Of a stretch of DNA of 64,000 nt, positions 38,011-64,000 are shown in pieces. Position 1 is the first letter of the stretch; each line of letters begins with the position of its first letter. The translations under genes and the position numbers were made by a program. The notes below the pieces were generated by a model that worked only from the letters and a program-made list of their open reading frames with translations, was not told where the DNA came from and did no database searches. Origin of the DNA: Astrocystis sublimbata (Eukaryota; Ascomycota; Sordariomycetes; Xylariales; Xylariaceae); assembly GCA_022453515.1 (NCBI GenBank), contig JAJNNY010000072.1, forward strand, positions 110,171-174,170, written 5' to 3'.

Positions 38011-40188
38011 ATGGATCCCAATATGATGAATATGCAGATGGGCCAGGCGTCGTTCTTCTACTATACGCCTGACCCGAACCCGGAAAACAGACAACATGGG
38101 CATTTCAGCCAGCACCCGGGCCTCCAGCAGATGCAGCAGCAACACCAACACATGTACCCCATTGTACCGACGCTTCCATCGACACCTATCTACTCTCGGC
38201 CCAACTCATCTTGCTCGCAGCAGGCCATGCCAGCCAAGATGTTCGCTCCGATTCCCAGCAGTGTGACGCCGCAGAGGCCGAACAACTTCATGGTCAGCCA
38301 CCCTGGCAAGTTGATGCTGGAGACGGACATCTGTGACACCGACGCCTTCTACTACCCGGCCACGCCACCATTGTCGACGTCGGGAAGCTCGATGGGCAGC
38401 CCCGCTCACATACAGGATGTGTTGGCGACACCATTGAACCCCATGTTCTCTGGAATGGACGGGTGCGAAATGATCAAGGCCGAGGAGGAGATAACAACAG
38501 GGGCTTTGGAGAACCTAGACTGGACAAGCTACACATCGACACCCGTTACTCCTGGTAAGCTCACATTTTCTTCTGGTTTTTTTCCGATAACCCGACTTTG
38601 GGTCTGCATCACGTGAAGTGGTTCACTGGATGCGGCCATGGCGTGCCACGTACCAATTGAAGGACCTGGCAAATGTTGTTTTCCAAGTTCCGTAAATAGC
38701 GGGTGGTCTGCAGATGTTCCATTGTGCAGCGTCGTGCATGAGCAACGTGATCGGCCGCAGCCGTGCTTGATGACAGACACGAGCCGGTCCCAATTTTGAA
38801 TCACGTTGCATCTTGTCATAGGTGGTTGGTTAGGTAGCTTGTTGAAGCCGGAAAGGTAGAACAGCACGAGAGCAAAGACTGGCGGCTAACTGGTGGTGTG
38901 TGTTGCAGTATACCTCCAGCAGCAGCAGCAGCTCCAATTACAGGTGCCCCAGGCAGGGAAGAGCCTTTCGCCTAGCGCGGCCAACCTCTCTGGCGACCTG
39001 GCCGGGGCGTCCTTCACAGGCACCCAGGCCAGCGCCAGCAGCTGCACGACGCCCACAAATCTCTCCTTTTCTGAGAGCACCGCCTCGTTCGACACCACAA
39101 CATCGTCAACATCCTCGACGCTCTCGTGTCCCTCACTCTCACCGTCGCCCTCCCCCGCCCGCGACCAGGACCTGGACTTCTGTGACCCCCGCAACCTGAC
39201 CGTCGGCGGTGCCGCTAACCCGACATTGGCGCCCGACTTCTCAGCATCCCCTGTCGCGCTTGATGAGTTCAGGGGCGACACCGCCCTGCCTGACGCCTTT
39301 GAGTTCAACCCGATTGTGCCCCACGGCCTGCCCGTCTTTGACGACGCGTCCGACTTGGAGTCCGACGACGACCTTCTCAGCTTCGTCGACCGCCTCGTCA
39401 ATCTCGGCGGCCAGCCGTCTGTCGAAGGCAAGAGGTCCCGCTCTGCCACCTGCTCCACCACACTCTCGCTCGGCCACGACACCTTTCTGGCTGACGATAG
39501 CTTCGACTGCGAGGACACCACATCCTGCGCCGTCACAGGCATCCCCAGTCCCTCTTCATTTGACTCGGACGCACACCAGGACAAGAAGCTCAAGAAGACC
39601 AAGAAGGAGGCTCGCAAGTCCGTGCCCATCATGAACATCGCTGCTGCCCCTGCCACCGACTCCGCCTCCGGGGAGGAGCAGAAGCGCGAGTCCACACAGA
39701 GCGAAGAGAGCCACACCGGTGCACACGTCGCCAGTTCGAGTGACGGCTCCGAGACCGCGCCCGCCCCTCTTCCCGCGCCAGCTAACCGACGCGGTCGGAA
39801 GCAGTCGCTCACGGAGGACCCGAGCAAGACGTTTGTCTGTGAGCTGTGCAATCGCCGATTCCGTCGCCAGGAACACTTGAAGCGCCATTACCGCTCACTT
39901 CACACCCAAGACAAGCCCTTTGAGTGCAATGAGTGTGGTAAGAAGTTTTCCCGGAGCGACAACTTGGCTCAACACTCGCGCACTCACGGTAGCGGTGCCA
40001 TCGTCATGAGTCTTCTCGACGGCAATGAGGACGGCCTTGATATGATTGCACACCCGGACAACGACTTTCACAACTACGGCAAAGTTCTGTTCCAAGTCGC
40101 CTCTGAGATGCCCGGCAGCGGTAGTGAATCTTCGGACGACTCTCAGAGCGAGAGCAACGGCAAGAAGAAGCGCAAGCGATCTGAATAA
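38011..40188 (+). CDS. MSN2: C2H2 zinc-finger stress transcription factor, Msn2/Msn4/Seb1-like
   Basis: This is a nuclear activator of the Msn2/4 type, which in fungi binds the stress element AGGGG and controls stress tolerance and often virulence and development. Exons 38011-38554 and 38909-40188 join in phase (G/TA) and give 607 residues. The N-terminus is Met/Gln-rich ([12 protein letters not shown]), followed by Pro/Ser-rich and acidic activation-like segments. Two C2H2 fingers lie near residues 492-541 (CELCNRRF...[10 protein letters not shown] and [17 protein letters not shown]), with the [12 protein letters not shown] helix typical of Msn2. The C-terminus ends in a KKKRKRSE basic tail. 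The last part of exon 1, the intron and exon 2 lie around the outer edge of the left arm, with a second exon-2 copy near the right end of the window. Confidence 0.93.
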
Positions 40189-41772
40189 TGCAACATATCT
40201 TCACATCGTCTGTACGACGTATGTCACCTTAACGATATTACGACTTCTTCTTACCAGCACCTACCCCGCTATCTTTACGCGGATCGGGCATTAGGGTCAA
40301 GGGACTATCATTGGCGGCTTGATTGAATTGGACCGAGGCTGAATGCTTCCTCATACCTAGAGACCGAAAAGTTTGCATCATCACATTCAGCATCATGCCT
40401 TCTTTGTGTATCAACAGTGGCGAGACGTACAAAGCTTCTTTCCATCTACGACATGGAAAATGGGATTTCGGCGAATTTGCCAGCACAATAGGACGGGTCG
40501 GGATTTTTGTGTTGGGCTGACGAGGCGTGACACGGCGGGATCTACATTTAGAACATTTGCAATTCCTGACTCGAGACCCACGACACTCACGTACATATAT
40601 CGGCATCGGCGGCTTCGTTTCTTTACTCTCTTTGTAATATATTGGGCAGACGACGCAGCGCGGCCGTTCTGACTCGAATGGGGTTCTCCGATGTTGATTA
40701 GATGGCTCGGAAGGGTACATCTTTCAACCTCTGGTCGTTTCGTCTTCGTATTGCATACTGCCATTCCTATAACGAGTATTAAAGTGCTGGACATTTGGGA
40801 GCTCTCACGCACGTCTTTGTACAGAAAGCAGATTATAACACGAATTAAAAAAAAAAGCTGCCAACCATCTACCTGACTTCATTCCACCAAACTCCATGAT
40901 GAAACCCATCTTGCGTGAATATGCTTCAAAGTTCGTGCACTGTTTTTACTCGCATACTAATTACTTGATCATTGGCCTTCACATCCATTCCGTAGTTGTG
41001 AACATAGATTGAAGAAGCCTCTATGTATGTCTACATGTTTTGGCGAGTGATGGACTGCATGAGCTACATGGTGCAGCAGAAAACGTAACTGACTGCTGAC
41101 TACATACCTAGGAAGTATGTATCCCACGGTGCATTTGCCGTCCATCATGCGCTTTGAGAGGCCTATCGACATGGCTAGCATTTGGTGTTCATCTTCAACA
41201 ATACTACATCTGCTGCCACCAAGGGGGCATTTACTCGCTACCCATCTTCCACTAACAATGTAAATGGATTGCTCTGATCGTTCTCTTCTTTGTATACCTG
41301 AGCGAGTTTCTTCCTCTTTCCAACTACCTATTTGATCTTAGGGTACCTACGTCCGGTAGCGGTAAGTGTGTTGCTGGCGGTCTAGGTACTATCCTACTAT
41401 GCTACTTACTATCGCAGGGTGGTAGATTCCAAGTCAGCCGATTGGCAACTGATGGCGAACGGCGGTATCGTACTTACGGGGGACACAGGTGGTACCTAGT
41501 GGGACAGCATCAGCCTCTTCTACGCTAGCAACACCGAACTTTCCGTGGCTGACAAAAAAGCATCTCAACCTGGATGAGCTACCTACCTCTTAGAGAACTA
41601 CCTACCTAAAGCTACCTACATAGGCACGAAGTAGATTACGGCATCCCATACGCGGGCAATCACGATTTGGGTGACGTGCAATTGACGACCTAGGGTTGAT
41701 GCGAGGGACCCATCACGCCATTTCTCAGCTCAACTAATTCCAACTAAGATCAGAACCAAAGGTTGAAACTTG

Positions 41773-41811
<39 letters not shown>

Positions 41812-42098
41812 ACTGTGGCACATGTGTTTCTTGATTCGCTAACCTACCTAGCATGCGGGCGTAACATTAAGTGTCCGGGTCCACATCTACCTACACTCAA
41901 CTACACCGGACACTTAAACCTCCGCCCACGGGCCTAGGTACCTAGGTAGTCTGGTGACTCTGTTACGTTACCTGCCCTCGTGCCCTGCCCTCGCAATCTC
42001 CAATCTCTGCGGGCACTATTCCTCATTGCTCATCAATCAAACAAAAGTCCGTCCTGGCTCGCTGGTCTCGGCTGCGATCCCTGAGATCCGCTGAAGCC
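40189..42098. other. Intergenic between MSN2 and DPH6
   Basis: No supported gene is seen in this 1.9 kb. The minus-strand frame 40238-40720 (160 codons, Cys/Arg-rich) overlaps the MSN2 3' flank and lacks recognisable features. TACCTA motifs are dense at 41578-41622 and 41932-41949. A perfect 10-base inverted pair (AAGTGTCCGG / CCGGACACTT) lies at about 41870-41879 and 41907-41916 and could form a hairpin in the DPH6 promoter region. Confidence 0.45.
41777..41810. repeat. AG microsatellite, 17 units
   Basis: A perfect 34-base AG run upstream of DPH6, seen directly. The mirror copy at 61026-61059 has exactly the same length, which matters for dating the inverted repeat. Confidence 0.95.
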
Positions 42099-45000
42099 AT
42101 GGCCGCGCCCCCGGGGCAAGGGTCTTTGTCGGTCATAGCTCTGATCTCCGGTGGCAAGGACAGCTTTTATTCCCTCCTCCACTGCCAAGCCAATGGCCAT
42201 CGTGTTGTCGCGTTGGCAAATCTCTACCCGTCAGGATCGGCTGAAGAACCCGTCGTGGGCGCTGGGCGGTCACTCTCACCCCCGTCCCAGCAAGATGGCC
42301 ACAGCGCTGCTTCCACGCGTCCGCGGCTCGAGACGGCCGGTGCTCGGTCACGACACAGCGAGATTGCGGGCGAGGGCGAGGGCGAGACTGATTTGAATAG
42401 TTTCATGTACCAGACCGTGGGCCATCAGATTGTGCCCTTGTACGCGCGAGCCACTGGCCTACCACTACACCGCCAGCCCATCGTAGGGACCGCGGTCCAC
42501 AGCGGGCTGAACTATGAAAATCCTCGTCGCAACTCACGAGGACTAGTGCCATCGGACGGCTCAGCGCTCAGGACTTCTCTTGGCCATTTCCCGTCAGCCA
42601 CTGACGGCGATCCGCAAGGGTTGGAGCGGGAGCAAGCTGACGATGGTGGTGAGCGGCAGCCAAGGCTAGAGCCAGACCGGGAGCTAGAGGACGAAACCGA
42701 ATCCCTAGTCCCACTATTACGCAGTGTTCTCGCGGCGCATCCCGAGGCCAACGCGCTATGCACGGGCGCCATTCTATCTACCTACCAGCGCACGAGAGTC
42801 GAGTCCGTCGCCATACGCCTGGGCCTCGTGCCCCTGTCGTATCTATGGCAGTTCACCGAACTGCCGCCCTCACTAGACGACAGCTGCTATGACCAGAATA
42901 TCGGCTTAGCGGCGAGGGCTACGAAGGGCAATGCTAACGGCAAGAAACGCCACGCAGCAGGCGGCCAAGAGCTGGCGCGAGACGATGCTCGGCTCCTCCG
43001 GGACATGGCAGCCGTGGGGCTCGAGGCACGCATCGTGAAGGTTGCGAGTGCGGGTCTCGACGAAGACTTCCTCTGGGAGAATGTGGCGAGCGAGAAAAGC
43101 GTGCAACGCGTGGATCGCGCCATGCGTCGCTTCGGAGCTGCTGGGGGTCGAGGCTCGATACTCGGGGAAGGTGGCGAGTTTGAGACACTCGTCGTTGACG
43201 GACCGCCATCCCTTTTCAAAGGCCGCATCGTCATATCAGACGACGATAAACGCGTCGTACGCGAAGGCGGCGGGTGTGCGTGGCTCAGCTTCCGTCAGGC
43301 GGATGTTGTCTTGAAGGACGAGCCAGAACAGGCAGGCGCATCATCACAAGCAGATGCGCTAAACAGCATTCGAATCCCGGGACTTCTCGACCCCAGATTT
43401 GCGGACACATTACAGTGCTTACTCGCCGATACGACGGGAGATGAGAACAAATTAGGGCTCCTTCATCTGGCGTCATCGCGCGATAGCGAACCTGGGCCTA
43501 ATCTCGGTCCGGAAAGTAGCTGGCGGACCACCGTAAAAGCGGGCTTCCCAAAATGTCAAATGTCATTGTCGAACAATCTTTCATCTGAAGAATGGGTTTT
43601 CCTTGGTAGCGACGAGCCGAGTCGTGCCAGCCTCGAGGAGCAAACAGTCAGCATCGTGGACCAGGTTCGCCGGTGCTTAGAAAGCTATAGGCTCCCCGCT
43701 ACTGCGATCAGTAATTCCGTGATAGTGCTACGGCACATGTCGGATTTTCCAGTCGTCAATAAGCACTATGGCTCCTTATTCCATGAGCCCAACCCGCCAT
43801 CACGCGTCACTATTTCCTGCGGCGATAAGCTTCTGCCCCAATACGCACATATTGCTGTTTATCTGACAGTTCAGCTAGGCTTACAACCTGACGAGAGACG
43901 CGGGCTTCATGTCCAGTCTCGTTCGTATTGGGCACCTGCAAATATTGGACCCTATAGTCAAGCTGTTGCTTTCCCACTGTTGCCTCAACTTGTTGGCGAC
44001 GCTGCGAAGCTACACGATGGCGAACTGGAGCAGCCTTTACATAGCTCGAGTTCACCCTTCGCCGTGGCCATAGCTGGCCAGATCCCCCTTCTCCCTGCAT
44101 CCATGGAGCTACCTTCATCCTCAGAGCCCAATAGTGTTGAACTACAAATTACCCTAGCACTACAGCACCTGTGGCGTGTCGGCATCGAGATGAAAGTTCG
44201 CTGGTGGACGAGTGCTGTCGCCTACTTCCCAGTCGCGTCGTCCACCGACGTCATGCGGCATCAGGCACTGCTTGCGGCTACTGCCTGGAAGGCGGCTCAT
44301 CTATGGCCCGACCTAGATCAAGGTAACGTAGACGAGGAGCTTGACGCAAGTGATGATGATGAGGAGGACGATGCTGGCCCTGATCTTTGGGACCGTCGGT
44401 ATAACGCCCAGTACATGACTCACGGCGACGAAGATGAACCTTTCCCGCTGTCTCTCCCAAACTGGAGTGTCTTGGAACATTTAAACGTACCTGTCGATGA
44501 GAGCGTCGGCAATAGCCGCGAAGGTGCGAAGGTGCTTCTACGAAAGAAAGCTGCAGCAGTCCCCTTTTTCTTCGCAGCCGAAGTTGAGGAGCTTCCGCGC
44601 CAGGCTGGCGTCGAGTGGCACGCTCATCTAGGACTTGCAGAAATACCAACAGGATCGATCACGTTTCAGTCCGCCAGTATTATGAAGCACACAGAAGACC
44701 TTACTGCTAGTGAACACCTCGTCGTCATTGACGCTGGAGATGCCGTGTTCGTGCAGACTATCTGTGCGATTCAGCCTCCCGCCCATGATGCCGATAGTCA
44801 GAAGGCTACAATTGCTCCAAATGTGCTTCGTAGTGTGGCTCGATGGCAAGGGTCCTCATTGCGGAAACTGTTGAATTTGTCAGAGTTCCCAAAAGTCAAG
44901 CCAAAAATCACATACGTCGAGGTTCTTTCAACCACAGAAATCAATAAAGAATGGCTCACCGATAACGAAAACCCCAACGGGTTCGGGAATAAGGATCCTT

Positions 45001-45107
45001 TTGGCGAGCTGGGACCGCTTATTCCTTGTCACTCACTCTGGGACTCCCAAGGCCGCCGGCTCGTGGCTGTTTGTATCTTCGAGACGAGATTGCCCAAAGC
45101 AAAATAG
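42099..45107 (+). CDS. DPH6: Diphthine--ammonia ligase
   Basis: This enzyme catalyses the last step of diphthamide synthesis on elongation factor 2, the ATP-dependent amidation of diphthine, in the cytosol. The single exon codes 1002 residues. The N-terminal ATP-pyrophosphatase domain has the PP-loop SGGKDS at residues 17-22. GAILSTYQRTRVESVAIRLG at about 225-245 and GEGGEFETLVVDGP near 355-370 are hallmark Dph6 segments. A fungal-type insert with acidic, Ser-rich sequence (about 45-215) separates the PP-loop from the rest. C-terminal RidA/YjgF-like domains follow, with ANIGPYSQAV near 615. The length exceeds yeast Dph6 (685) mainly through inserts. The ATG has a good GCCATGGCC context. An identical inverted copy lies at 57729-60737. 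Confidence 0.95.
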   Translation: MAAPPGQGSLSVIALISGGKDSFYSLLHCQANGHRVVALANLYPSGSAEEPVVGAGRSLSPPSQQDGHSAASTRPRLETAGARSRHSEIAGEGEGETDLNSFMYQTVGHQIVPLYARATGLPLHRQPIVGTAVHSGLNYENPRRNSRGLVPSDGSALRTSLGHFPSATDGDPQGLEREQADDGGERQPRLEPDRELEDETESLVPLLRSVLAAHPEANALCTGAILSTYQRTRVESVAIRLGLVPLSYLWQFTELPPSLDDSCYDQNIGLAARATKGNANGKKRHAAGGQELARDDARLLRDMAAVGLEARIVKVASAGLDEDFLWENVASEKSVQRVDRAMRRFGAAGGRGSILGEGGEFETLVVDGPPSLFKGRIVISDDDKRVVREGGGCAWLSFRQADVVLKDEPEQAGASSQADALNSIRIPGLLDPRFADTLQCLLADTTGDENKLGLLHLASSRDSEPGPNLGPESSWRTTVKAGFPKCQMSLSNNLSSEEWVFLGSDEPSRASLEEQTVSIVDQVRRCLESYRLPATAISNSVIVLRHMSDFPVVNKHYGSLFHEPNPPSRVTISCGDKLLPQYAHIAVYLTVQLGLQPDERRGLHVQSRSYWAPANIGPYSQAVAFPLLPQLVGDAAKLHDGELEQPLHSSSSPFAVAIAGQIPLLPASMELPSSSEPNSVELQITLALQHLWRVGIEMKVRWWTSAVAYFPVASSTDVMRHQALLAATAWKAAHLWPDLDQGNVDEELDASDDDEEDDAGPDLWDRRYNAQYMTHGDEDEPFPLSLPNWSVLEHLNVPVDESVGNSREGAKVLLRKKAAAVPFFFAAEVEELPRQAGVEWHAHLGLAEIPTGSITFQSASIMKHTEDLTASEHLVVIDAGDAVFVQTICAIQPPAHDADSQKATIAPNVLRSVARWQGSSLRKLLNLSEFPKVKPKITYVEVLSTTEINKEWLTDNENPNGFGNKDPFGELGPLIPCHSLWDSQGRRLVAVCIFETRLPKAK

Positions 45108-45961
45108 TTTGAGAACGCATACTGCGGTTATCATTGCCGTCAGCCTTACAATCTGCTTTTGGCATGTTGTGTCGAGTATAAAGTAGCAGTAGACAGTACT
45201 GTGGGAACGTGAAGGGCATATCGTTCACCCCAATACTCCTTCTGTGTCTTAGACTTGGATCCTGAACTGGCAGTTGGGGGCTAAAAGATCATCCACATCT
45301 GCGGCGCATATATTGAGACTCAAATAGATCTGGCAAACCCGCGTGCTGTCTGCTACGATGCTACCGTACCATACTGAAGGATGGAGAGGCTGGAATCCTT
45401 CACATGATGCGGTTTATATCTAGCAATTCAAATACTACGCACAACTTTTCCGCCTCTATGTTACTCAAGCCTTCAGCCGTTGGTCTTCAACTATCTTTAG
45501 CACCGAACAATGTGCAAGTAGTTTAAGCCCGGTGATACGCGATATCCTGCCCCCAAATAGCCACGCATGCACGATCATACTCGACTGTACATGTTACTGG
45601 CCTCAGACTAATATTAGACATTACATCGAATGAGGCTGCTTTATCGTACAGAGATTTGGGAATAAAATACGACGGCGTATTAGCTATGGGAAGCTGAACA
45701 AGCATTAACGCAAGGCTAGGCAGGCATCCTTCTAGATCCAACGACCGATATGAACAACGCCTCATATGTTCTACTCCTACACTACCTAATGTGAAGCTCC
45801 CATCTATTTATAATTCCAGCCCCTAGGACAAGAAATGCAGTTCACGACGAGTGCCTATATCAACATCCAGAATGTCTACTTCTTGGGCTTGAGTTACCGA
45901 GTTAAACACGGACAATCGAGCTGTCTACCTCTTCTTGCAAGTTGACATCGTAGCCAACATC
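45108..45961. other. Intergenic, DPH6 3' flank and PL20 lyase promoter
   Basis: No gene is seen. Short frames only; the final 100 bases are the presumed leader of the secreted lyase. Confidence 0.45.
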
Positions 45962-46986
45962 ATGCTGTCCCACGCTCTCCCTATCCTCTGCGCCCTGAGC
46001 GCCGCTGCTTCTGTGCAGGCGTCGCAGATATTCAGCAACACAGGCACCATGGACGGATGGGACCACTTCACGCACGAGAACCAGGGCACCGTGGAAGAGG
46101 TCACCGACGTCGTGTACCAAGGCAGCACGGCGCTCAAGATGACTCAGGTCTACGACCCGAACTACAGCGGACGGTACCACTCCGAGGCCGTCAAGTATGA
46201 CGTTTACAAGAAGGGTGACACGGGCTTCTACGGGTTTGCCTTCAAGCTGCAGGACGACTGGGAGTTCGCGCCGGCGCAGAAATTTAACTTGGCCCAGTTC
46301 ATCACGGACTTCACGGATTTGGGGTGCGAGGAGACTTATATGCCCTCTACTTGTGAGTGCTTTCCCGTGTTGTTTTGCATTTTCACAGTTCGATATATAT
46401 ATAGTAGGTATTGAATGAGTGGTGACTGATTCGTGAATTTTGCAGTGGTGTGGATCGAGGGTGACCAGCTCGCTACTCGTGTCAAGTACGGCGAGGTCTG
46501 CCCGACTAGCAGCCAGGTAACGCGCAACTTCAAAAACCTAAAGACAGTTACGGCCGGCGAATGGCATCGCAGTAAGTCATTCTCCTATCTCCCATCCCTA
46601 GGCATCTGGTTGGCAGTTCTCAGACCTGCAAGAGCTTCCATTTGCGAGTTAAGAGACTGTTCACAACTTTTGAGGTCTCATGGATGAGCTAGATGTACAG
46701 TGGAAGGCCGTAACTAATGTTGATGATCACAGTTGAGCTCCAGATCAATTGGCAGAGTGACGAGACGGGTTACATCAAGATGTGGTATGATGGCGAGAAA
46801 GTGACCGAGACGTACAACATCGCCACCAACGTCGGGGATGAGCGGCCGTTCCAGTTCCGCGCCGGTCTCTACGCGAATGGCTGGCACGATAACGGCTATC
46901 AGGGCAATCAGGATATGCGACAGGTTTGGTACGACCAGATCGCTGCTGGGTCTGAGTTCTCGGATGCTGACCCAGATGGATGGTGA
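45962..46986 (+). CDS. Secreted polysaccharide lyase family 20 (glucuronan lyase)
   Basis: This is probably an endo-beta-1,4-glucuronan lyase (PL20, the family of the Trichoderma enzyme TrGL), which cleaves polyglucuronate outside the cell by beta-elimination. Residues 1-19 (MLSHALPILCALSAAASVQA region) form a signal peptide with likely cleavage after Ala. The mature chain is a beta-jelly-roll with the segments YSGRYHSEAVKYDVYKKGD, GFYGFAFKLQDDWEF, FNLAQFITDF, GEWHR..ELQINWQSDETGY and FRAGLYANGW. The Lys, His, Tyr, Asp and Asn groups suit the family active groove, but catalytic residues were not assigned. Exons 45962-46352, 46446-46571 and 46733-46986 keep phase and give 256 residues, the usual PL20 size. 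The upstream in-frame ATG at 45935 would bury the signal peptide, so 45962 is preferred. Confidence 0.88.
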
Positions 46987-48026
46987 TGTATGCGGCATTT
47001 GCTTGGGCTGCGTCCACGTTTCCGCAAACGTTGGAACCCTGTCACGAGAATTAACGCAGCTCGACGAGCTGCAATTCCCCTCACTGGAGGAGACACCGGA
47101 TAGCAAGGTATCTCCACTTGCCATGCTGAGAGATGCATGCCAGGTGTTGTTGAAGCCAAGATGGGAATTCTAGGCAGCGTCTAGATGGAGAGAGCAACCT
47201 GCCAATCTCCCATGACAATAAGTAAAGGAAAGGTTTCCAAGAATAGATCATGAGCGACTGCGGATGTTCTATAATGATTCGATGAATCGTCGAAAATATA
47301 GCATTGGTTTGAGAATTACATCCGTCCCTACCTAATTGATGATGCGACCACGCCGTCCTAGAAATAGTCCAAGTACTGTATCGAATGAGAGCAGCACATC
47401 GTAGGATAGTAGCAAATGACCAAATTGAGATATGTCGCATCACGCTGATAAATGCGAAGAGAAAAACCGCGCATCTAAGTAGCAGCATAGATAAACCGGG
47501 ATATTGTGATTCATGTTCTTCGAAAGATGCTTAGAAGATCCTATTGGGCCAGAAAGCCATATTGCTTCTCTTACCGACTCTCAATCACATGCAAAACGTC
47601 GCGACGACTGGAGGTAAGCCAGCGCTTGATTGGCGCATGCGTCATTGCCCAGTTGCATATTCTGGGGTACAATAGCAAGCTCCCGCATGCCACTAACCGG
47701 ATGGGGATAATGCAGAACCGATTCCAGCTAGTGAGCCCCGGCATTGGATTGTCTTGAGCCGAGAGACAAGACAATAACTTAACCTTACCCTCCTTACCTA
47801 GCTCACATGTTCAAGAATCTCAAACTAGCCGACAGACAACAACATTCCCTCCTTGTCCACCCCTCCATTTCTCCCACATAGCATCTCCATGTAGACCGCT
47901 CTTCGAGACAGCAACACCCAATGAGTCGGTAACGGCTTTTTTGTGTCCCTCACTCCCTGCACTGCCCTCCGACCGAAAGCGCCGGACCGTCCTCTTCGGC
48001 AGTTCTGAAAAAATAGCCGAGGCACG
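46987..48026. other. Intergenic, PL20 and PXMP4 flanks
   Basis: No supported gene is seen. The 135-codon minus-strand frame at 47081-47488 has no domain and is matched only by its own mirror copy. Pyrimidine-rich DNA at about 47780-48000 precedes the PXMP4-type start. Confidence 0.45.
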
Positions 48027-49055
48027 ATGACGTCCTCGCTACAGAGCCTTAAGGTGTGTTGTTTTTGGCGCCAGCCTACCCCCTGATGAGAAGCAAAAGC
48101 GAAGCACGAAGAGGGAAAGATGCAGAGGAAAGAGGAGGGTTGCTATCCCGCACAATAGATCCCAAATTGTTTCCTACGTCGCAACAAATAGCCATGGTTA
48201 CTAAGTTGAGAATTGCCAACCGCGCAGGCCGCCATCGAGCGCGTGATCCTCGACCCGGCGAACCATGACCTGCTGGCCGTCGTGAAGGGCGCGCGCAACG
48301 GCGCCGTCTACGGCGCCAAGGTGCGCTTCCCGCACGCGCTCGTCATGGTCTTCCTGTTCCGCTCCGGCACCTTCCGCCAGAAGGTCGACCTCGTCTTCCG
48401 CGCCACGCGCACCCACGCCCGCAACCTCGCCAAGTTCGCCACCATATACAAGTTCATGTGCTACGCGCTCAAGCGCTGGGGGCCCACGCCGGGGAAGGAG
48501 GGTGAGTTCGACCCTATACACACCTGGGCGCGAGAAAGGGGGGAGGGAAGGTGTAGCGTTAAACACGCGCGATCGCCCGCAAGGGGAGAGAGAGAGAGAG
48601 AGAGAGAATAGGAGACAACTTCATTACAAAAGGGGAACAATGCTAACGCGACACCCTTTCCCATCAAAACAGGTCCATACGACAACCTACTGGCCGGTTT
48701 AGTAGGCGGCTATTTCGTCTTCGGCCAGCGCTCGCGGAAATCGGGCAAGATCTCCAGCGTGAACCAGCAGATCGTCATCTACGTGTTCGCGCGCGTGGTG
48801 TTAGCCCTGGCGCGGCTGGCCGTGAAGCCCGGAGCGGCCACCGGCCTGCCATTCGTATCGCGGGAGAAGCCCTCGGCCATGATCAGCCACTACGCCTGGC
48901 CCGTCTTCGCCGCCGCCTCCTGGGGCCTCGTCATGCACCTCTTCCGCCACCACCCGGACGACCTGCAGCCCAGTCTGCGGTCGAGCATGAATTACATATA
49001 CCTCCAGTCCAACGAATGGGACGGACTGAGGAATTTCGTGGTCCACAATAAGTAA
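48027..49055 (+). CDS. PXMP4: Peroxisomal membrane protein PXMP4/PMP24-like
   Basis: This is an integral peroxisomal membrane protein of the PMP24 branch of the Tim17/22/23/PMP24 family; its biochemical role is unknown. Exons 48027-48053, 48228-48501 and 48673-49055 join in phase and give 227 residues, close to family length. The 9-residue first exon (MTSSLQSLK) joins AAIERVILDP. Family hallmarks are LAVVKGARNGAVYGAKVRFP, HARNLAKFATIYK and the Gly-rich helix LLAGLVGGYFVFG after the second intron. INYQIVIYV-like (here VNQQIVIYVFARV) and a terminal helix around WPVFAAASWGLVMHLF follow. A GA microsatellite (48586-48607) sits inside intron 2. It is convergent with the mannosyltransferase gene. 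The mirror copy lies at 53781-54809. Confidence 0.9.
48586..48607. repeat. GA microsatellite inside PXMP4 intron 2
   Basis: An uninterrupted GA run of about 22 bases, seen directly, with an equal-length mirror copy at 54229-54250. Confidence 0.9.
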
Positions 49056-49520
49056 CCAAATATAAACAAATGTAAGATGAGAATGTATCCAATGTGATAG
49101 GGAGACAAAAGACCTCCAGTCCATGCTGTTCTTGCATGCGCATCAGCGAGAGGGACAACTGAGCAGCGCCAAGCGAGTTTGTTGTGGCAGAGTCGGCATG
49201 AGTGGCACAGGCAAATTGAGGGTCTTTATTGCATGGCGTTTTTTTTTTGGTTGGGTGTATTGGGGTTTCATGCATACTATATCCGAGTTCTATCAAGGCA
49301 GCGACAACAGGGCCTGGTAACGATTGCTGCCTATTTGGATATCGAATCCCATACATAGAGCACGGTGGCACAGAGTCACTACAGAGTTTTAGAGGGTGTA
49401 TTTGCTTTGCTGCCTGTAGAGATCTATGATAGCCCCTTATTGTGGCCTGTATGCTTTTATATATCAACACATACCATACTACCTTCACAAATTTTGCGCT
49501 GTTTTCACTGTTTTCCAAGT
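49056..49520. other. Convergent 3' flank between PXMP4 and mannosyltransferase
   Basis: No gene is seen. This is 3' flanking DNA of two convergent genes, with a T-run at about 49241-49249 and a TATATA-rich tail near 49457-49462. Confidence 0.5.
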
Positions 49521-51410: not shown

Positions 51411-51425
51411 TGATTTTTTTTAACT
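51411..51425. other. Spacer at the centre of the palindrome
   Basis: Fifteen unpaired bases (TGA, eight T, then AACT) lie between the arms; the symmetry centre is at 51418. The spacer is AT-rich and differs from the common hairpin sequencing adapter as I recall it. No telomere repeat is present. Confidence 0.9.
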
Positions 51426-53315: not shown

Positions 53316-53780
53316 ACTTGGAAAACAGTGAAAACAGCGCAAAATTTGTGAAGGTAGTATGGTATGTGTTGATATATAAAAGCATACAGGCCACAATAAG
53401 GGGCTATCATAGATCTCTACAGGCAGCAAAGCAAATACACCCTCTAAAACTCTGTAGTGACTCTGTGCCACCGTGCTCTATGTATGGGATTCGATATCCA
53501 AATAGGCAGCAATCGTTACCAGGCCCTGTTGTCGCTGCCTTGATAGAACTCGGATATAGTATGCATGAAACCCCAATACACCCAACCAAAAAAAAAACGC
53601 CATGCAATAAAGACCCTCAATTTGCCTGTGCCACTCATGCCGACTCTGCCACAACAAACTCGCTTGGCGCTGCTCAGTTGTCCCTCTCGCTGATGCGCAT
53701 GCAAGAACAGCATGGACTGGAGGTCTTTTGTCTCCCTATCACATTGGATACATTCTCATCTTACATTTGTTTATATTTGG

Positions 53781-54809
53781 TTACTTATTGTGGACCACGA
53801 AATTCCTCAGTCCGTCCCATTCGTTGGACTGGAGGTATATGTAATTCATGCTCGACCGCAGACTGGGCTGCAGGTCGTCCGGGTGGTGGCGGAAGAGGTG
53901 CATGACGAGGCCCCAGGAGGCGGCGGCGAAGACGGGCCAGGCGTAGTGGCTGATCATGGCCGAGGGCTTCTCCCGCGATACGAATGGCAGGCCGGTGGCC
54001 GCTCCGGGCTTCACGGCCAGCCGCGCCAGGGCTAACACCACGCGCGCGAACACGTAGATGACGATCTGCTGGTTCACGCTGGAGATCTTGCCCGATTTCC
54101 GCGAGCGCTGGCCGAAGACGAAATAGCCGCCTACTAAACCGGCCAGTAGGTTGTCGTATGGACCTGTTTTGATGGGAAAGGGTGTCGCGTTAGCATTGTT
54201 CCCCTTTTGTAATGAAGTTGTCTCCTATTCTCTCTCTCTCTCTCTCTCTCCCCTTGCGGGCGATCGCGCGTGTTTAACGCTACACCTTCCCTCCCCCCTT
54301 TCTCGCGCCCAGGTGTGTATAGGGTCGAACTCACCCTCCTTCCCCGGCGTGGGCCCCCAGCGCTTGAGCGCGTAGCACATGAACTTGTATATGGTGGCGA
54401 ACTTGGCGAGGTTGCGGGCGTGGGTGCGCGTGGCGCGGAAGACGAGGTCGACCTTCTGGCGGAAGGTGCCGGAGCGGAACAGGAAGACCATGACGAGCGC
54501 GTGCGGGAAGCGCACCTTGGCGCCGTAGACGGCGCCGTTGCGCGCGCCCTTCACGACGGCCAGCAGGTCATGGTTCGCCGGGTCGAGGATCACGCGCTCG
54601 ATGGCGGCCTGCGCGGTTGGCAATTCTCAACTTAGTAACCATGGCTATTTGTTGCGACGTAGGAAACAATTTGGGATCTATTGTGCGGGATAGCAACCCT
54701 CCTCTTTCCTCTGCATCTTTCCCTCTTCGTGCTTCGCTTTTGCTTCTCATCAGGGGGTAGGCTGGCGCCAAAAACAACACACCTTAAGGCTCTGTAGCGA
54801 GGACGTCAT
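53781..54809 (-). CDS. PXMP4: Mirror copy of the PXMP4-like gene
   Basis: Reverse-complement twin of 48027-49055 with the same three exons (54809-54783, 54608-54335, 54163-53781) and the same 227-residue product. The GA repeat in intron 2 has equal length. It is convergent with the mirror mannosyltransferase. No difference from the left copy was seen. Confidence 0.85.
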
Positions 54810-55849
54810 CGTGCCTCGGCTATTTTTTCAGAACTGCCGAAGAGGACGGTCCGGCGCTTTCGGTCGGAGGGCAGTGCAGGGAGTGAGGGACACAAAAAAG
54901 CCGTTACCGACTCATTGGGTGTTGCTGTCTCGAAGAGCGGTCTACATGGAGATGCTATGTGGGAGAAATGGAGGGGTGGACAAGGAGGGAATGTTGTTGT
55001 CTGTCGGCTAGTTTGAGATTCTTGAACATGTGAGCTAGGTAAGGAGGGTAAGGTTAAGTTATTGTCTTGTCTCTCGGCTCAAGACAATCCAATGCCGGGG
55101 CTCACTAGCTGGAATCGGTTCTGCATTATCCCCATCCGGTTAGTGGCATGCGGGAGCTTGCTATTGTACCCCAGAATATGCAACTGGGCAATGACGCATG
55201 CGCCAATCAAGCGCTGGCTTACCTCCAGTCGTCGCGACGTTTTGCATGTGATTGAGAGTCGGTAAGAGAAGCAATATGGCTTTCTGGCCCAATAGGATCT
55301 TCTAAGCATCTTTCGAAGAACATGAATCACAATATCCCGGTTTATCTATGCTGCTACTTAGATGCGCGGTTTTTCTCTTCGCATTTATCAGCGTGATGCG
55401 ACATATCTCAATTTGGTCATTTGCTACTATCCTACGATGTGCTGCTCTCATTCGATACAGTACTTGGACTATTTCTAGGACGGCGTGGTCGCATCATCAA
55501 TTAGGTAGGGACGGATGTAATTCTCAAACCAATGCTATATTTTCGACGATTCATCGAATCATTATAGAACATCCGCAGTCGCTCATGATCTATTCTTGGA
55601 AACCTTTCCTTTACTTATTGTCATGGGAGATTGGCAGGTTGCTCTCTCCATCTAGACGCTGCCTAGAATTCCCATCTTGGCTTCAACAACACCTGGCATG
55701 CATCTCTCAGCATGGCAAGTGGAGATACCTTGCTATCCGGTGTCTCCTCCAGTGAGGGGAATTGCAGCTCGTCGAGCTGCGTTAATTCTCGTGACAGGGT
55801 TCCAACGTTTGCGGAAACGTGGACGCAGCCCAAGCAAATGCCGCATACA

Positions 55850-56874
55850 TCACCATCCATCTGGGTCAGCATCCGAGAACTCAGACCCAGCAGCGATCTG
55901 GTCGTACCAAACCTGTCGCATATCCTGATTGCCCTGATAGCCGTTATCGTGCCAGCCATTCGCGTAGAGACCGGCGCGGAACTGGAACGGCCGCTCATCC
56001 CCGACGTTGGTGGCGATGTTGTACGTCTCGGTCACTTTCTCGCCATCATACCACATCTTGATGTAACCCGTCTCGTCACTCTGCCAATTGATCTGGAGCT
56101 CAACTGTGATCATCAACATTAGTTACGGCCTTCCACTGTACATCTAGCTCATCCATGAGACCTCAAAAGTTGTGAACAGTCTCTTAACTCGCAAATGGAA
56201 GCTCTTGCAGGTCTGAGAACTGCCAACCAGATGCCTAGGGATGGGAGATAGGAGAATGACTTACTGCGATGCCATTCGCCGGCCGTAACTGTCTTTAGGT
56301 TTTTGAAGTTGCGCGTTACCTGGCTGCTAGTCGGGCAGACCTCGCCGTACTTGACACGAGTAGCGAGCTGGTCACCCTCGATCCACACCACTGCAAAATT
56401 CACGAATCAGTCACCACTCATTCAATACCTACTATATATATATCGAACTGTGAAAATGCAAAACAACACGGGAAAGCACTCACAAGTAGAGGGCATATAA
56501 GTCTCCTCGCACCCCAAATCCGTGAAGTCCGTGATGAACTGGGCCAAGTTAAATTTCTGCGCCGGCGCGAACTCCCAGTCGTCCTGCAGCTTGAAGGCAA
56601 ACCCGTAGAAGCCCGTGTCACCCTTCTTGTAAACGTCATACTTGACGGCCTCGGAGTGGTACCGTCCGCTGTAGTTCGGGTCGTAGACCTGAGTCATCTT
56701 GAGCGCCGTGCTGCCTTGGTACACGACGTCGGTGACCTCTTCCACGGTGCCCTGGTTCTCGTGCGTGAAGTGGTCCCATCCGTCCATGGTGCCTGTGTTG
56801 CTGAATATCTGCGACGCCTGCACAGAAGCAGCGGCGCTCAGGGCGCAGAGGATAGGGAGAGCGTGGGACAGCAT
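55850..56874 (-). CDS. Mirror copy of the PL20 glucuronan lyase gene
   Basis: Reverse-complement twin of 45962-46986, with exons 56874-56484, 56390-56265 and 56103-55850 and the same 256-residue secreted product, signal peptide included. No difference from the left copy was seen. Confidence 0.85.
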
Positions 56875-57728
56875 GATGTTGGCTACGATGTCAACTTGCA
56901 AGAAGAGGTAGACAGCTCGATTGTCCGTGTTTAACTCGGTAACTCAAGCCCAAGAAGTAGACATTCTGGATGTTGATATAGGCACTCGTCGTGAACTGCA
57001 TTTCTTGTCCTAGGGGCTGGAATTATAAATAGATGGGAGCTTCACATTAGGTAGTGTAGGAGTAGAACATATGAGGCGTTGTTCATATCGGTCGTTGGAT
57101 CTAGAAGGATGCCTGCCTAGCCTTGCGTTAATGCTTGTTCAGCTTCCCATAGCTAATACGCCGTCGTATTTTATTCCCAAATCTCTGTACGATAAAGCAG
57201 CCTCATTCGATGTAATGTCTAATATTAGTCTGAGGCCAGTAACATGTACAGTCGAGTATGATCGTGCATGCGTGGCTATTTGGGGGCAGGATATCGCGTA
57301 TCACCGGGCTTAAACTACTTGCACATTGTTCGGTGCTAAAGATAGTTGAAGACCAACGGCTGAAGGCTTGAGTAACATAGAGGCGGAAAAGTTGTGCGTA
57401 GTATTTGAATTGCTAGATATAAACCGCATCATGTGAAGGATTCCAGCCTCTCCATCCTTCAGTATGGTACGGTAGCATCGTAGCAGACAGCACGCGGGTT
57501 TGCCAGATCTATTTGAGTCTCAATATATGCGCCGCAGATGTGGATGATCTTTTAGCCCCCAACTGCCAGTTCAGGATCCAAGTCTAAGACACAGAAGGAG
57601 TATTGGGGTGAACGATATGCCCTTCACGTTCCCACAGTACTGTCTACTGCTACTTTATACTCGACACAACATGCCAAAAGCAGATTGTAAGGCTGACGGC
57701 AATGATAACCGCAGTATGCGTTCTCAAA

Positions 57729-60700
57729 CTATTTTGCTTTGGGCAATCTCGTCTCGAAGATACAAACAGCCACGAGCCGGCGGCCTTGGGAGTCCCAGAG
57801 TGAGTGACAAGGAATAAGCGGTCCCAGCTCGCCAAAAGGATCCTTATTCCCGAACCCGTTGGGGTTTTCGTTATCGGTGAGCCATTCTTTATTGATTTCT
57901 GTGGTTGAAAGAACCTCGACGTATGTGATTTTTGGCTTGACTTTTGGGAACTCTGACAAATTCAACAGTTTCCGCAATGAGGACCCTTGCCATCGAGCCA
58001 CACTACGAAGCACATTTGGAGCAATTGTAGCCTTCTGACTATCGGCATCATGGGCGGGAGGCTGAATCGCACAGATAGTCTGCACGAACACGGCATCTCC
58101 AGCGTCAATGACGACGAGGTGTTCACTAGCAGTAAGGTCTTCTGTGTGCTTCATAATACTGGCGGACTGAAACGTGATCGATCCTGTTGGTATTTCTGCA
58201 AGTCCTAGATGAGCGTGCCACTCGACGCCAGCCTGGCGCGGAAGCTCCTCAACTTCGGCTGCGAAGAAAAAGGGGACTGCTGCAGCTTTCTTTCGTAGAA
58301 GCACCTTCGCACCTTCGCGGCTATTGCCGACGCTCTCATCGACAGGTACGTTTAAATGTTCCAAGACACTCCAGTTTGGGAGAGACAGCGGGAAAGGTTC
58401 ATCTTCGTCGCCGTGAGTCATGTACTGGGCGTTATACCGACGGTCCCAAAGATCAGGGCCAGCATCGTCCTCCTCATCATCATCACTTGCGTCAAGCTCC
58501 TCGTCTACGTTACCTTGATCTAGGTCGGGCCATAGATGAGCCGCCTTCCAGGCAGTAGCCGCAAGCAGTGCCTGATGCCGCATGACGTCGGTGGACGACG
58601 CGACTGGGAAGTAGGCGACAGCACTCGTCCACCAGCGAACTTTCATCTCGATGCCGACACGCCACAGGTGCTGTAGTGCTAGGGTAATTTGTAGTTCAAC
58701 ACTATTGGGCTCTGAGGATGAAGGTAGCTCCATGGATGCAGGGAGAAGGGGGATCTGGCCAGCTATGGCCACGGCGAAGGGTGAACTCGAGCTATGTAAA
58801 GGCTGCTCCAGTTCGCCATCGTGTAGCTTCGCAGCGTCGCCAACAAGTTGAGGCAACAGTGGGAAAGCAACAGCTTGACTATAGGGTCCAATATTTGCAG
58901 GTGCCCAATACGAACGAGACTGGACATGAAGCCCGCGTCTCTCGTCAGGTTGTAAGCCTAGCTGAACTGTCAGATAAACAGCAATATGTGCGTATTGGGG
59001 CAGAAGCTTATCGCCGCAGGAAATAGTGACGCGTGATGGCGGGTTGGGCTCATGGAATAAGGAGCCATAGTGCTTATTGACGACTGGAAAATCCGACATG
59101 TGCCGTAGCACTATCACGGAATTACTGATCGCAGTAGCGGGGAGCCTATAGCTTTCTAAGCACCGGCGAACCTGGTCCACGATGCTGACTGTTTGCTCCT
59201 CGAGGCTGGCACGACTCGGCTCGTCGCTACCAAGGAAAACCCATTCTTCAGATGAAAGATTGTTCGACAATGACATTTGACATTTTGGGAAGCCCGCTTT
59301 TACGGTGGTCCGCCAGCTACTTTCCGGACCGAGATTAGGCCCAGGTTCGCTATCGCGCGATGACGCCAGATGAAGGAGCCCTAATTTGTTCTCATCTCCC
59401 GTCGTATCGGCGAGTAAGCACTGTAATGTGTCCGCAAATCTGGGGTCGAGAAGTCCCGGGATTCGAATGCTGTTTAGCGCATCTGCTTGTGATGATGCGC
59501 CTGCCTGTTCTGGCTCGTCCTTCAAGACAACATCCGCCTGACGGAAGCTGAGCCACGCACACCCGCCGCCTTCGCGTACGACGCGTTTATCGTCGTCTGA
59601 TATGACGATGCGGCCTTTGAAAAGGGATGGCGGTCCGTCAACGACGAGTGTCTCAAACTCGCCACCTTCCCCGAGTATCGAGCCTCGACCCCCAGCAGCT
59701 CCGAAGCGACGCATGGCGCGATCCACGCGTTGCACGCTTTTCTCGCTCGCCACATTCTCCCAGAGGAAGTCTTCGTCGAGACCCGCACTCGCAACCTTCA
59801 CGATGCGTGCCTCGAGCCCCACGGCTGCCATGTCCCGGAGGAGCCGAGCATCGTCTCGCGCCAGCTCTTGGCCGCCTGCTGCGTGGCGTTTCTTGCCGTT
59901 AGCATTGCCCTTCGTAGCCCTCGCCGCTAAGCCGATATTCTGGTCATAGCAGCTGTCGTCTAGTGAGGGCGGCAGTTCGGTGAACTGCCATAGATACGAC
60001 AGGGGCACGAGGCCCAGGCGTATGGCGACGGACTCGACTCTCGTGCGCTGGTAGGTAGATAGAATGGCGCCCGTGCATAGCGCGTTGGCCTCGGGATGCG
60101 CCGCGAGAACACTGCGTAATAGTGGGACTAGGGATTCGGTTTCGTCCTCTAGCTCCCGGTCTGGCTCTAGCCTTGGCTGCCGCTCACCACCATCGTCAGC
60201 TTGCTCCCGCTCCAACCCTTGCGGATCGCCGTCAGTGGCTGACGGGAAATGGCCAAGAGAAGTCCTGAGCGCTGAGCCGTCCGATGGCACTAGTCCTCGT
60301 GAGTTGCGACGAGGATTTTCATAGTTCAGCCCGCTGTGGACCGCGGTCCCTACGATGGGCTGGCGGTGTAGTGGTAGGCCAGTGGCTCGCGCGTACAAGG
60401 GCACAATCTGATGGCCCACGGTCTGGTACATGAAACTATTCAAATCAGTCTCGCCCTCGCCCTCGCCCGCAATCTCGCTGTGTCGTGACCGAGCACCGGC
60501 CGTCTCGAGCCGCGGACGCGTGGAAGCAGCGCTGTGGCCATCTTGCTGGGACGGGGGTGAGAGTGACCGCCCAGCGCCCACGACGGGTTCTTCAGCCGAT
60601 CCTGACGGGTAGAGATTTGCCAACGCGACAACACGATGGCCATTGGCTTGGCAGTGGAGGAGGGAATAAAAGCTGTCCTTGCCACCGGAGATCAGAGCTA

Positions 60701-60737
60701 TGACCGACAAAGACCCTTGCCCCGGGGGCGCGGCCAT
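57729..60737 (-). CDS. DPH6: Mirror copy of diphthine--ammonia ligase
   Basis: Reverse-complement twin of 42099-45107. The 1002-residue translation is the same as that of the left copy, including the SGGKDS loop. Dph6 is normally single-copy in fungi (family knowledge), so an identical second copy is unexpected and bears on whether the repeat is real. Confidence 0.85.
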   Translation of the reverse strand: MAAPPGQGSLSVIALISGGKDSFYSLLHCQANGHRVVALANLYPSGSAEEPVVGAGRSLSPPSQQDGHSAASTRPRLETAGARSRHSEIAGEGEGETDLNSFMYQTVGHQIVPLYARATGLPLHRQPIVGTAVHSGLNYENPRRNSRGLVPSDGSALRTSLGHFPSATDGDPQGLEREQADDGGERQPRLEPDRELEDETESLVPLLRSVLAAHPEANALCTGAILSTYQRTRVESVAIRLGLVPLSYLWQFTELPPSLDDSCYDQNIGLAARATKGNANGKKRHAAGGQELARDDARLLRDMAAVGLEARIVKVASAGLDEDFLWENVASEKSVQRVDRAMRRFGAAGGRGSILGEGGEFETLVVDGPPSLFKGRIVISDDDKRVVREGGGCAWLSFRQADVVLKDEPEQAGASSQADALNSIRIPGLLDPRFADTLQCLLADTTGDENKLGLLHLASSRDSEPGPNLGPESSWRTTVKAGFPKCQMSLSNNLSSEEWVFLGSDEPSRASLEEQTVSIVDQVRRCLESYRLPATAISNSVIVLRHMSDFPVVNKHYGSLFHEPNPPSRVTISCGDKLLPQYAHIAVYLTVQLGLQPDERRGLHVQSRSYWAPANIGPYSQAVAFPLLPQLVGDAAKLHDGELEQPLHSSSSPFAVAIAGQIPLLPASMELPSSSEPNSVELQITLALQHLWRVGIEMKVRWWTSAVAYFPVASSTDVMRHQALLAATAWKAAHLWPDLDQGNVDEELDASDDDEEDDAGPDLWDRRYNAQYMTHGDEDEPFPLSLPNWSVLEHLNVPVDESVGNSREGAKVLLRKKAAAVPFFFAAEVEELPRQAGVEWHAHLGLAEIPTGSITFQSASIMKHTEDLTASEHLVVIDAGDAVFVQTICAIQPPAHDADSQKATIAPNVLRSVARWQGSSLRKLLNLSEFPKVKPKITYVEVLSTTEINKEWLTDNENPNGFGNKDPFGELGPLIPCHSLWDSQGRRLVAVCIFETRLPKAK

Positions 60738-61024
60738 GGCTTCAGCGGATCTCAGGGATCGCAGCCGAGACCAGCGAGCCAGGACGGACTTTTGTTTGAT
60801 TGATGAGCAATGAGGAATAGTGCCCGCAGAGATTGGAGATTGCGAGGGCAGGGCACGAGGGCAGGTAACGTAACAGAGTCACCAGACTACCTAGGTACCT
60901 AGGCCCGTGGGCGGAGGTTTAAGTGTCCGGTGTAGTTGAGTGTAGGTAGATGTGGACCCGGACACTTAATGTTACGCCCGCATGCTAGGTAGGTTAGCGA
61001 ATCAAGAAACACATGTGCCACAGT

Positions 61025-61025
<1 letters not shown>

Positions 61026-61059
<34 letters not shown>
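61026..61059. repeat. Mirror AG/CT microsatellite
   Basis: CT run of 34 bases, the exact mirror of 41777-41810 with equal length. Confidence 0.95.
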
Positions 61060-61063
<4 letters not shown>

Positions 61064-62647
61064 CAAGTTTCAACCTTTGGTTCTGATCTTAGTTGGAATT
61101 AGTTGAGCTGAGAAATGGCGTGATGGGTCCCTCGCATCAACCCTAGGTCGTCAATTGCACGTCACCCAAATCGTGATTGCCCGCGTATGGGATGCCGTAA
61201 TCTACTTCGTGCCTATGTAGGTAGCTTTAGGTAGGTAGTTCTCTAAGAGGTAGGTAGCTCATCCAGGTTGAGATGCTTTTTTGTCAGCCACGGAAAGTTC
61301 GGTGTTGCTAGCGTAGAAGAGGCTGATGCTGTCCCACTAGGTACCACCTGTGTCCCCCGTAAGTACGATACCGCCGTTCGCCATCAGTTGCCAATCGGCT
61401 GACTTGGAATCTACCACCCTGCGATAGTAAGTAGCATAGTAGGATAGTACCTAGACCGCCAGCAACACACTTACCGCTACCGGACGTAGGTACCCTAAGA
61501 TCAAATAGGTAGTTGGAAAGAGGAAGAAACTCGCTCAGGTATACAAAGAAGAGAACGATCAGAGCAATCCATTTACATTGTTAGTGGAAGATGGGTAGCG
61601 AGTAAATGCCCCCTTGGTGGCAGCAGATGTAGTATTGTTGAAGATGAACACCAAATGCTAGCCATGTCGATAGGCCTCTCAAAGCGCATGATGGACGGCA
61701 AATGCACCGTGGGATACATACTTCCTAGGTATGTAGTCAGCAGTCAGTTACGTTTTCTGCTGCACCATGTAGCTCATGCAGTCCATCACTCGCCAAAACA
61801 TGTAGACATACATAGAGGCTTCTTCAATCTATGTTCACAACTACGGAATGGATGTGAAGGCCAATGATCAAGTAATTAGTATGCGAGTAAAAACAGTGCA
61901 CGAACTTTGAAGCATATTCACGCAAGATGGGTTTCATCATGGAGTTTGGTGGAATGAAGTCAGGTAGATGGTTGGCAGCTTTTTTTTTTAATTCGTGTTA
62001 TAATCTGCTTTCTGTACAAAGACGTGCGTGAGAGCTCCCAAATGTCCAGCACTTTAATACTCGTTATAGGAATGGCAGTATGCAATACGAAGACGAAACG
62101 ACCAGAGGTTGAAAGATGTACCCTTCCGAGCCATCTAATCAACATCGGAGAACCCCATTCGAGTCAGAACGGCCGCGCTGCGTCGTCTGCCCAATATATT
62201 ACAAAGAGAGTAAAGAAACGAAGCCGCCGATGCCGATATATGTACGTGAGTGTCGTGGGTCTCGAGTCAGGAATTGCAAATGTTCTAAATGTAGATCCCG
62301 CCGTGTCACGCCTCGTCAGCCCAACACAAAAATCCCGACCCGTCCTATTGTGCTGGCAAATTCGCCGAAATCCCATTTTCCATGTCGTAGATGGAAAGAA
62401 GCTTTGTACGTCTCGCCACTGTTGATACACAAAGAAGGCATGATGCTGAATGTGATGATGCAAACTTTTCGGTCTCTAGGTATGAGGAAGCATTCAGCCT
62501 CGGTCCAATTCAATCAAGCCGCCAATGATAGTCCCTTGACCCTAATGCCCGATCCGCGTAAAGATAGCGGGGTAGGTGCTGGTAAGAAGAAGTCGTAATA
62601 TCGTTAAGGTGACATACGTCGTACAGACGATGTGAAGATATGTTGCA

Positions 62648-63922
62648 TTATTCAGATCGCTTGCGCTTCTTCTTGCCGTTGCTCTCGCTCTGAGAGTCGT
62701 CCGAAGATTCACTACCGCTGCCGGGCATCTCAGAGGCGACTTGGAACAGAACTTTGCCGTAGTTGTGAAAGTCGTTGTCCGGGTGTGCAATCATATCAAG
62801 GCCGTCCTCATTGCCGTCGAGAAGACTCATGACGATGGCACCGCTACCGTGAGTGCGCGAGTGTTGAGCCAAGTTGTCGCTCCGGGAAAACTTCTTACCA
62901 CACTCATTGCACTCAAAGGGCTTGTCTTGGGTGTGAAGTGAGCGGTAATGGCGCTTCAAGTGTTCCTGGCGACGGAATCGGCGATTGCACAGCTCACAGA
63001 CAAACGTCTTGCTCGGGTCCTCCGTGAGCGACTGCTTCCGACCGCGTCGGTTAGCTGGCGCGGGAAGAGGGGCGGGCGCGGTCTCGGAGCCGTCACTCGA
63101 ACTGGCGACGTGTGCACCGGTGTGGCTCTCTTCGCTCTGTGTGGACTCGCGCTTCTCCTCCCCGGAGGCGGAGTCGGTGGCAGGGGCAGCAGCGATGTTC
63201 ATGATGGGCACGGACTTGCGAGCCTCCTTCTTGGTCTTCTTGAGCTTCTTGTCCTGGTGTGCGTCCGAGTCAAATGAAGAGGGACTGGGGATGCCTGTGA
63301 CGGCGCAGGATGTGGTGTCCTCGCAGTCGAAGCTATCGTCAGCCAGAAAGGTGTCGTGGCCGAGCGAGAGTGTGGTGGAGCAGGTGGCAGAGCGGGACCT
63401 CTTGCCTTCGACAGACGGCTGGCCGCCGAGATTGACGAGGCGGTCGACGAAGCTGAGAAGGTCGTCGTCGGACTCCAAGTCGGACGCGTCGTCAAAGACG
63501 GGCAGGCCGTGGGGCACAATCGGGTTGAACTCAAAGGCGTCAGGCAGGGCGGTGTCGCCCCTGAACTCATCAAGCGCGACAGGGGATGCTGAGAAGTCGG
63601 GCGCCAATGTCGGGTTAGCGGCACCGCCGACGGTCAGGTTGCGGGGGTCACAGAAGTCCAGGTCCTGGTCGCGGGCGGGGGAGGGCGACGGTGAGAGTGA
63701 GGGACACGAGAGCGTCGAGGATGTTGACGATGTTGTGGTGTCGAACGAGGCGGTGCTCTCAGAAAAGGAGAGATTTGTGGGCGTCGTGCAGCTGCTGGCG
63801 CTGGCCTGGGTGCCTGTGAAGGACGCCCGGCCAGGTCGCCAGAGAGGTTGGCCGCGCTAGGCGAAAGGCTCTTCCCTGCCTGGGGCACCTGTAATGGAGC
63901 TGCTGCTGCTGCTGGAGGTATA
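62648..63922 (-). pseudogene. MSN2: Partial, frameshifted mirror copy of MSN2 exon 2
   Basis: Twin of MSN2 exon 2 (38909-40188), cut by the window end before exon 1. Compared with the left copy it lacks 3 bases near 63154 (in-frame loss of one Gln in EEQKR), one base of a G4 run near 63826 and one base of an AA pair near 63895. Since the two single-base losses do not restore frame, the zinc-finger part would be out of frame with exon 1. The finger-coding frame itself remains open from 63607 to the stop at 62648. The losses lie in the final 0.85 kb of the window and shorten short base runs, so uncorrected sequencing error at a contig end is as likely as true mutation. Confidence 0.8.
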
Positions 63923-64000
63923 CTGCAACACACACCACCAGTTAGCCGCCAGTCTTTGCTCTCGTGCTGTTCTACCTTTCCGGCTTCAACAAGCTACCTA

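Follow-up and report, generated by a model that had tools for sequence, protein, structure and literature searches.

Does the 25-kb palindrome that closes contig C160 of Astrocystis sublimbata exist in the chromosomes of this fungus, or was it made during sequencing and assembly? The window, i.e. the whole stretch of 64,000 nucleotides analysed here, covers positions 110171-174170 of this contig, which is itself 174,170 b long, so that the mirrored sequence ends at its very last base. The complete assembly comprises 42.6 Mb in 189 contigs. A first-pass annotation had reported a near-perfect palindrome at the end of the window and had left two readings: a fold-back duplication at a chromosome end, and an artefact, either a chimeric read folded back on itself or an assembly that reversed direction. 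The palindrome itself is in the sequence. When the whole window is compared with itself by BLAST, 38831-64000 is recovered as an inverted repeat and as the sole non-trivial match, no further repeat pair being detected in the window at E 1e-5 with a word size of 16. Its parts are the following.

38831-51410, forward strand: left arm, 12,580 b, joined to the unique sequence of positions 1-38830 and read as the true copy
38831-39679, forward strand: outer stretch of the left arm, 849 b, which contains all three differences between the arms
51411-51425, no strand: spacer at the turn, 15 b
51426-64000, reverse strand: right arm, 12,575 b, probably artefactual; it repeats the left arm as its reverse complement and stops with the final base of C160

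The alignment of the two arms extends over 12,580 columns with 5 indel columns and no substitution. The bases present on the left and absent on the right are an A at 38936, a G at 39004 and CAG at 39677-39679; two of these three right-arm gaps sit in single-base runs. The rule that every feature has its twin at 102836 minus its coordinate holds without exception over 39680-51410 (11,731 b of perfect symmetry) but breaks down in the outer 849 b, where the gaps of the right arm offset the register by 3 to 5 b. The 15-base spacer lies where it had been placed, at 51411-51425. At such a length a chance origin of the symmetry is not an issue. The sequence around the turn is AT-rich, the 120 b centred on it having a GC fraction of 0.24.

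Each arm had been credited with five genes. Pfam profiles support four of these five:

38893-40188, forward strand: C2H2 zinc-finger ORF of 431 codons (Pfam)
42099-45107, forward strand: diphthine-ammonia ligase gene, 1002 aa, with its mirror at 57729-60737 on the reverse strand (Pfam)
45935-46414, forward strand: polysaccharide-lyase ORF, with its mirror at 56422-56901 on the reverse strand (Pfam)
49521-50871, reverse strand: CAP59-type mannosyltransferase, in two ORFs (50191-50871 and 49521-50165) with their mirrors at 51965-52645 and 52671-53315 on the forward strand (Pfam)

Because of the indels between the arms, the mirror of the zinc-finger ORF (62648-63607, reverse strand) is open for 319 codons only. 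The best non-self match of the diphthine-ammonia ligase, among the best 120 of 2223 matches, is a Xylaria longipes protein with 69% identity. The genes of the arms are ordinary chromosomal genes. Elsewhere in the window, a 575-codon ORF at 12375-14102 matches Rrn11, an RNA polymerase I initiation factor.

Two properties characterize fold-back artefacts: a reverse-complement copy of the adjacent locus that ends at the contig end, and recurrence at other, unrelated loci within one data set. The first is observed at C160. Directly beyond the right arm there is only the contig end, and neither a telomere, nor a translocation, nor unique sequence follows in the assembly. The tandem repeats detected in the window include no telomere array. 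Searches of the assembly with parts of the arms (38700-41000 and 50900-51425) identified no other occurrence; the former matches only itself and its mirror. Likewise, 51200-51425 matches C160 alone at E values up to 10, and no second contig crosses the turn.

An inverted duplication made in the cell could produce a similar structure. A broken end would fold at a short inverted repeat and yield a hairpin-capped chromosome, then a mirror-image chromosome, which would break again and be stabilized. In yeast, according to one study (PMC10622511), fold-back duplication needs no more than a break close to an imperfect inverted repeat of 11 bp with a 6-bp spacer; such events are frequent in cells deficient in Sae2 or Mre11, with a few in wild type, and their products are stabilized via telomere capture, translocation or centromere loss. 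Perfect arms and a short spacer are the expected products, and the yeast duplications as described there resemble C160 in their perfect inverted arms and would also resemble it in a fold-back at a short inverted repeat, if the step proposed below applies. However, they differ from it in being completed by a stabilizing event, whereas none, whether telomere or translocation, follows the C160 arm, which simply runs to the contig end. A real palindrome could likewise have halted the assembler at this point. Overall, we consider an in-cell origin improbable, mainly in view of what is observed at other contig tips.

The mirroring of C132, first seen as exactly mirrored TTAGGG sites, prompted a sampling of these tips. 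Thirty-three contig starts were taken, a non-random set picked by contig number, 15 as 10-kb stretches and 18 as 250-b tips. One of the 15 long starts, partly composed of N, was excluded before the count (its readable part also gave an inverted match), leaving 32 usable. Four of these are palindromic (C2, C120, C134 and C188) and 28 are not. A search of tips against the assembly (30 starts and 2 ends) recovered the tip itself in 32 of 32 cases and detected no inverted copy in the own contig for 28 of the 30 starts. The arms of C2 (3.5 kb) and C188 (3.56 kb) were read over their full length, while the palindromes of C120 (about 5.2 kb) and C134 (about 3.9 kb) were each read as a 90-b near-tip piece and 400 b at the turn. 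Five further terminal palindromes were met incidentally, at the starts of C48 and C163 (0.87 kb) and at the ends of C100 (1.25 kb), C132 (about 18.5 kb; 240 of the 250 tip bases are comparable and identical to the mirror) and C182 (15.4 kb followed by a second turn, 3.1 kb of each arm being unread). With C160 this amounts to ten contigs and eight loci, C48 corresponding to the C2 locus and C100 overlapping C182. The second property, recurrence at unrelated loci, is therefore also observed. A duplication arising in the cell would have had to occur at eight loci of one genome, in ten contigs, exactly at the contig tips. The 28 non-palindromic starts count against an artefact, as do four contig ends without a palindrome: that of C188, read as a 250-b tip, and those of C15, C143 and C156, read over 7.8-8.5 kb.

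The origin of the C160 palindrome at a chromosome end, which had been proposed as the real alternative, was considered separately. At least three contigs (C15, C143 and C156) end in TTAGGG arrays, and the stretches read from them contain no inverted match; the window carries no such array. This part of the earlier proposal is thus left without positive support, the arms carrying ordinary genes and no telomere array, while its other part, a fold-back chimeric read or an assembly turnaround, is favoured by the stop at the contig end, by the recurrence and by the two contradicted sister loci described below.

Several of these tips have peculiarities of their own. C132 was ruled out as a second perfect palindrome, 165 of 8246 aligned columns being different. 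Most of the differing columns (155 of 165) are concentrated in about 2 kb near the turn (274995-276995 against its mirror), by short TTAGGG blocks, the arms hardly differing over the outer part that was compared. All 165 together comprise 153 transitions, one transversion and 11 indels. The differences may result either from RIP-like mutation of a subtelomeric repeat or from reads of other subtelomeres mixed in by polishing. In C15 (57306-58025) the starts of two TTAGGG blocks, of which the second reaches the contig end, are separated by 492 b, and in C132 (275136-275658) by 493 b, a spacing that suggests a shared subtelomeric unit. In addition, C130 (58-150) is identical, in the same orientation, to C131 (288327-288419), which may reflect a repeat or overlapping contigs.

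C182 turns twice (82320-97701), and its inner turning point is shared by C100; the two turns delimit one unit of about 15.4 kb, which resembles a dumbbell or a chimera folded several times. The turn common to both contigs counts against an artefact, as a defined real end could also give it. It would fit sequencing straight across a natural terminus, either a covalently closed hairpin end or that of a linear element resembling a dumbbell, the turns near 82320 and 97701 then bounding the element. However, C182 goes on beyond 82320, the arms of C160 bear ordinary chromosomal genes and at least three contigs terminate in TTAGGG arrays. Closed hairpin ends are therefore the least probable of the explanations that we considered.

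At two loci a second contig contradicts the turn. The tip search provided C112 as the second contig for C163. Once reverse-complemented, C163 runs along C112 from 1 to 904 at 100% identity and then back from 841 to 1 at 99.8%, whereas C112 runs straight on past this point and, within its first 3 kb, shows no inverted match to itself. The geometry of this turn can be traced: an 8-b inverted repeat is located at 834 and 895 of C112, the strand rejoins at about 831-841 and the loop measures about 53 b. A second contig over the turn was also sought for C160, C2, C188, C120 and C134 and was obtained for C2 only, in the form of C48. This 25-kb contig duplicates the start of C2 and is identical to it beyond the palindrome (2001 of 2001 b), which suggests that it is probably redundant. 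It reads through the C2 turn, carries about 124 b without a match in C2:1-10000 and turns back elsewhere. The assembly search found no second contig over the turns of C188 and C120. Besides C48, the C2 turn has one 85% match, in C129, and the C134 turn has only repeat relatives of 85-89% identity elsewhere in the assembly. This turn (C134:3685-3874) is located inside a dispersed repeat with at least 39 further matches in the same range of identity. Judging from the contigs, the turns of C163 and C2 are not fixed genomic joins, because another contig reads past each of them into different sequence. Continuation past the turn into other sequence, which the first-pass annotation had named as evidence that would speak against a real repeat, is thus found at these two sister loci, and it further weakens an in-cell duplication.

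The turns also share their base composition. All eight that were measured are AT-rich, with GC fractions of 0.07-0.27 in the 60 b at the arm end. In a background of 158,050 overlapping 60-mers, drawn from positions 1-38830 of the window and from 12 contig starts, 1.1% have a value of 0.27 or less, as do two of the 28 non-mirrored start tips. AT-rich ends open easily, and the composition of the turns therefore fits self-annealing. For a duplication in the cell, the AT-rich turn could instead be a fragile site. Such a fold would begin at a short native inverted repeat; an 8-b inverted repeat is present at C163/C112. The native far side of the C160 turn is absent from the assembly; on the known side, the left-arm end and the spacer do not form a stable hairpin (z +1.95).

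Since no second contig crosses its turn, C160 has to be judged by the class to which it belongs. Membership of this class, the chimeric molecule and the stage at which it arose are what we infer, and on these grounds we regard the palindrome with high confidence as a fold-back artefact at a contig tip, the artefacts being taken as a whole and whatever their exact source. A DNA molecule or read ending near 51410-51425 would have folded back, giving a read that consists of the locus followed by its reverse complement. Having no sequence past the AT-rich spot, the assembler would then have followed the returning strand and lengthened C160 by 12.6 kb, as far as the evidence reached. The closure itself may have occurred when a single-stranded 3' end snapped back, annealed to a short inverted repeat some 50 b upstream of it and was ligated or extended into a closed hairpin, a step suggested by the geometry of C163/C112 and not visible at C160 itself. 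Ligation, end repair or a strand-displacing polymerase may have sealed the fold. It could be placed in library preparation or in whole-genome amplification. The gaps of the right arm, all within the part that mirrors the outer 849 b, would fit a tip that was polished less well, because reads that reach unique sequence would map to the left arm alone.

Both stages have known counterparts. Fold-back artefact reads made up 0.55-0.6% of the reads in the nanopore genomic data of one study, their sites can recur, and library preparation is favoured as their source by its authors (PMC12870357). As at C160, the sequence of such a read switches, at one and the same place, to its own reverse complement; as described there, the phenomenon concerns reads, whereas the present examples are contig ends. 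Fewer than half of them have more than 11 bp between the two halves, the C160 spacer being 15 b. HiFi data from the three PacBio samples of the same study were essentially free of fold-backs, which counts against the artefact reading. The chimeras generated by whole-genome amplification, as presented in another study (PMC6218980), consist of inverted copies joined end to end, may include several folds per molecule and lead to false inverted duplications in assemblies. The end-to-end inverted copies found here resemble those in that description in their sequence structure, and the twice-folded C182 is compatible with it.

An artefact could also have been produced by computation alone, the assembler having walked back along a graph edge at a dead end with no chimeric molecule involved. 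The members of each pair, C112 with C163 and C2 with C48, have a common starting base, which looks like shared graph edges. However, the joins have spacers or loops of definite sequence, an 8-b inverted repeat is present at C163, and the approximately 124 b at the C48 turn match nothing in C2:1-10000. Within the artefact reading, chimeric molecules or reads are therefore much the likelier source and account for most of our confidence in it; a purely computational turn is unlikely and takes the small remainder.

A different picture would emerge if this fungus formed many real fold-back duplications or hairpin-closed ends at AT-rich sites, true palindromes then being present in a share of the nuclei. 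The genes of the C160 arms would be doubled and the disagreeing contig pairs would represent variants within the culture. We find this very doubtful.

The C160 palindrome is thus very probably not a real chromosomal feature of A. sublimbata. The pairs C163/C112 and C2/C48 illustrate how contigs alone, with no raw reads, can expose turns of this kind. As nine other contigs are alike, the contig tips of this assembly should be screened for self-complementarity before duplications are counted. Taken at face value, the palindrome would wrongly duplicate at least four genes of the fungus and give the appearance of a dramatic rearrangement.
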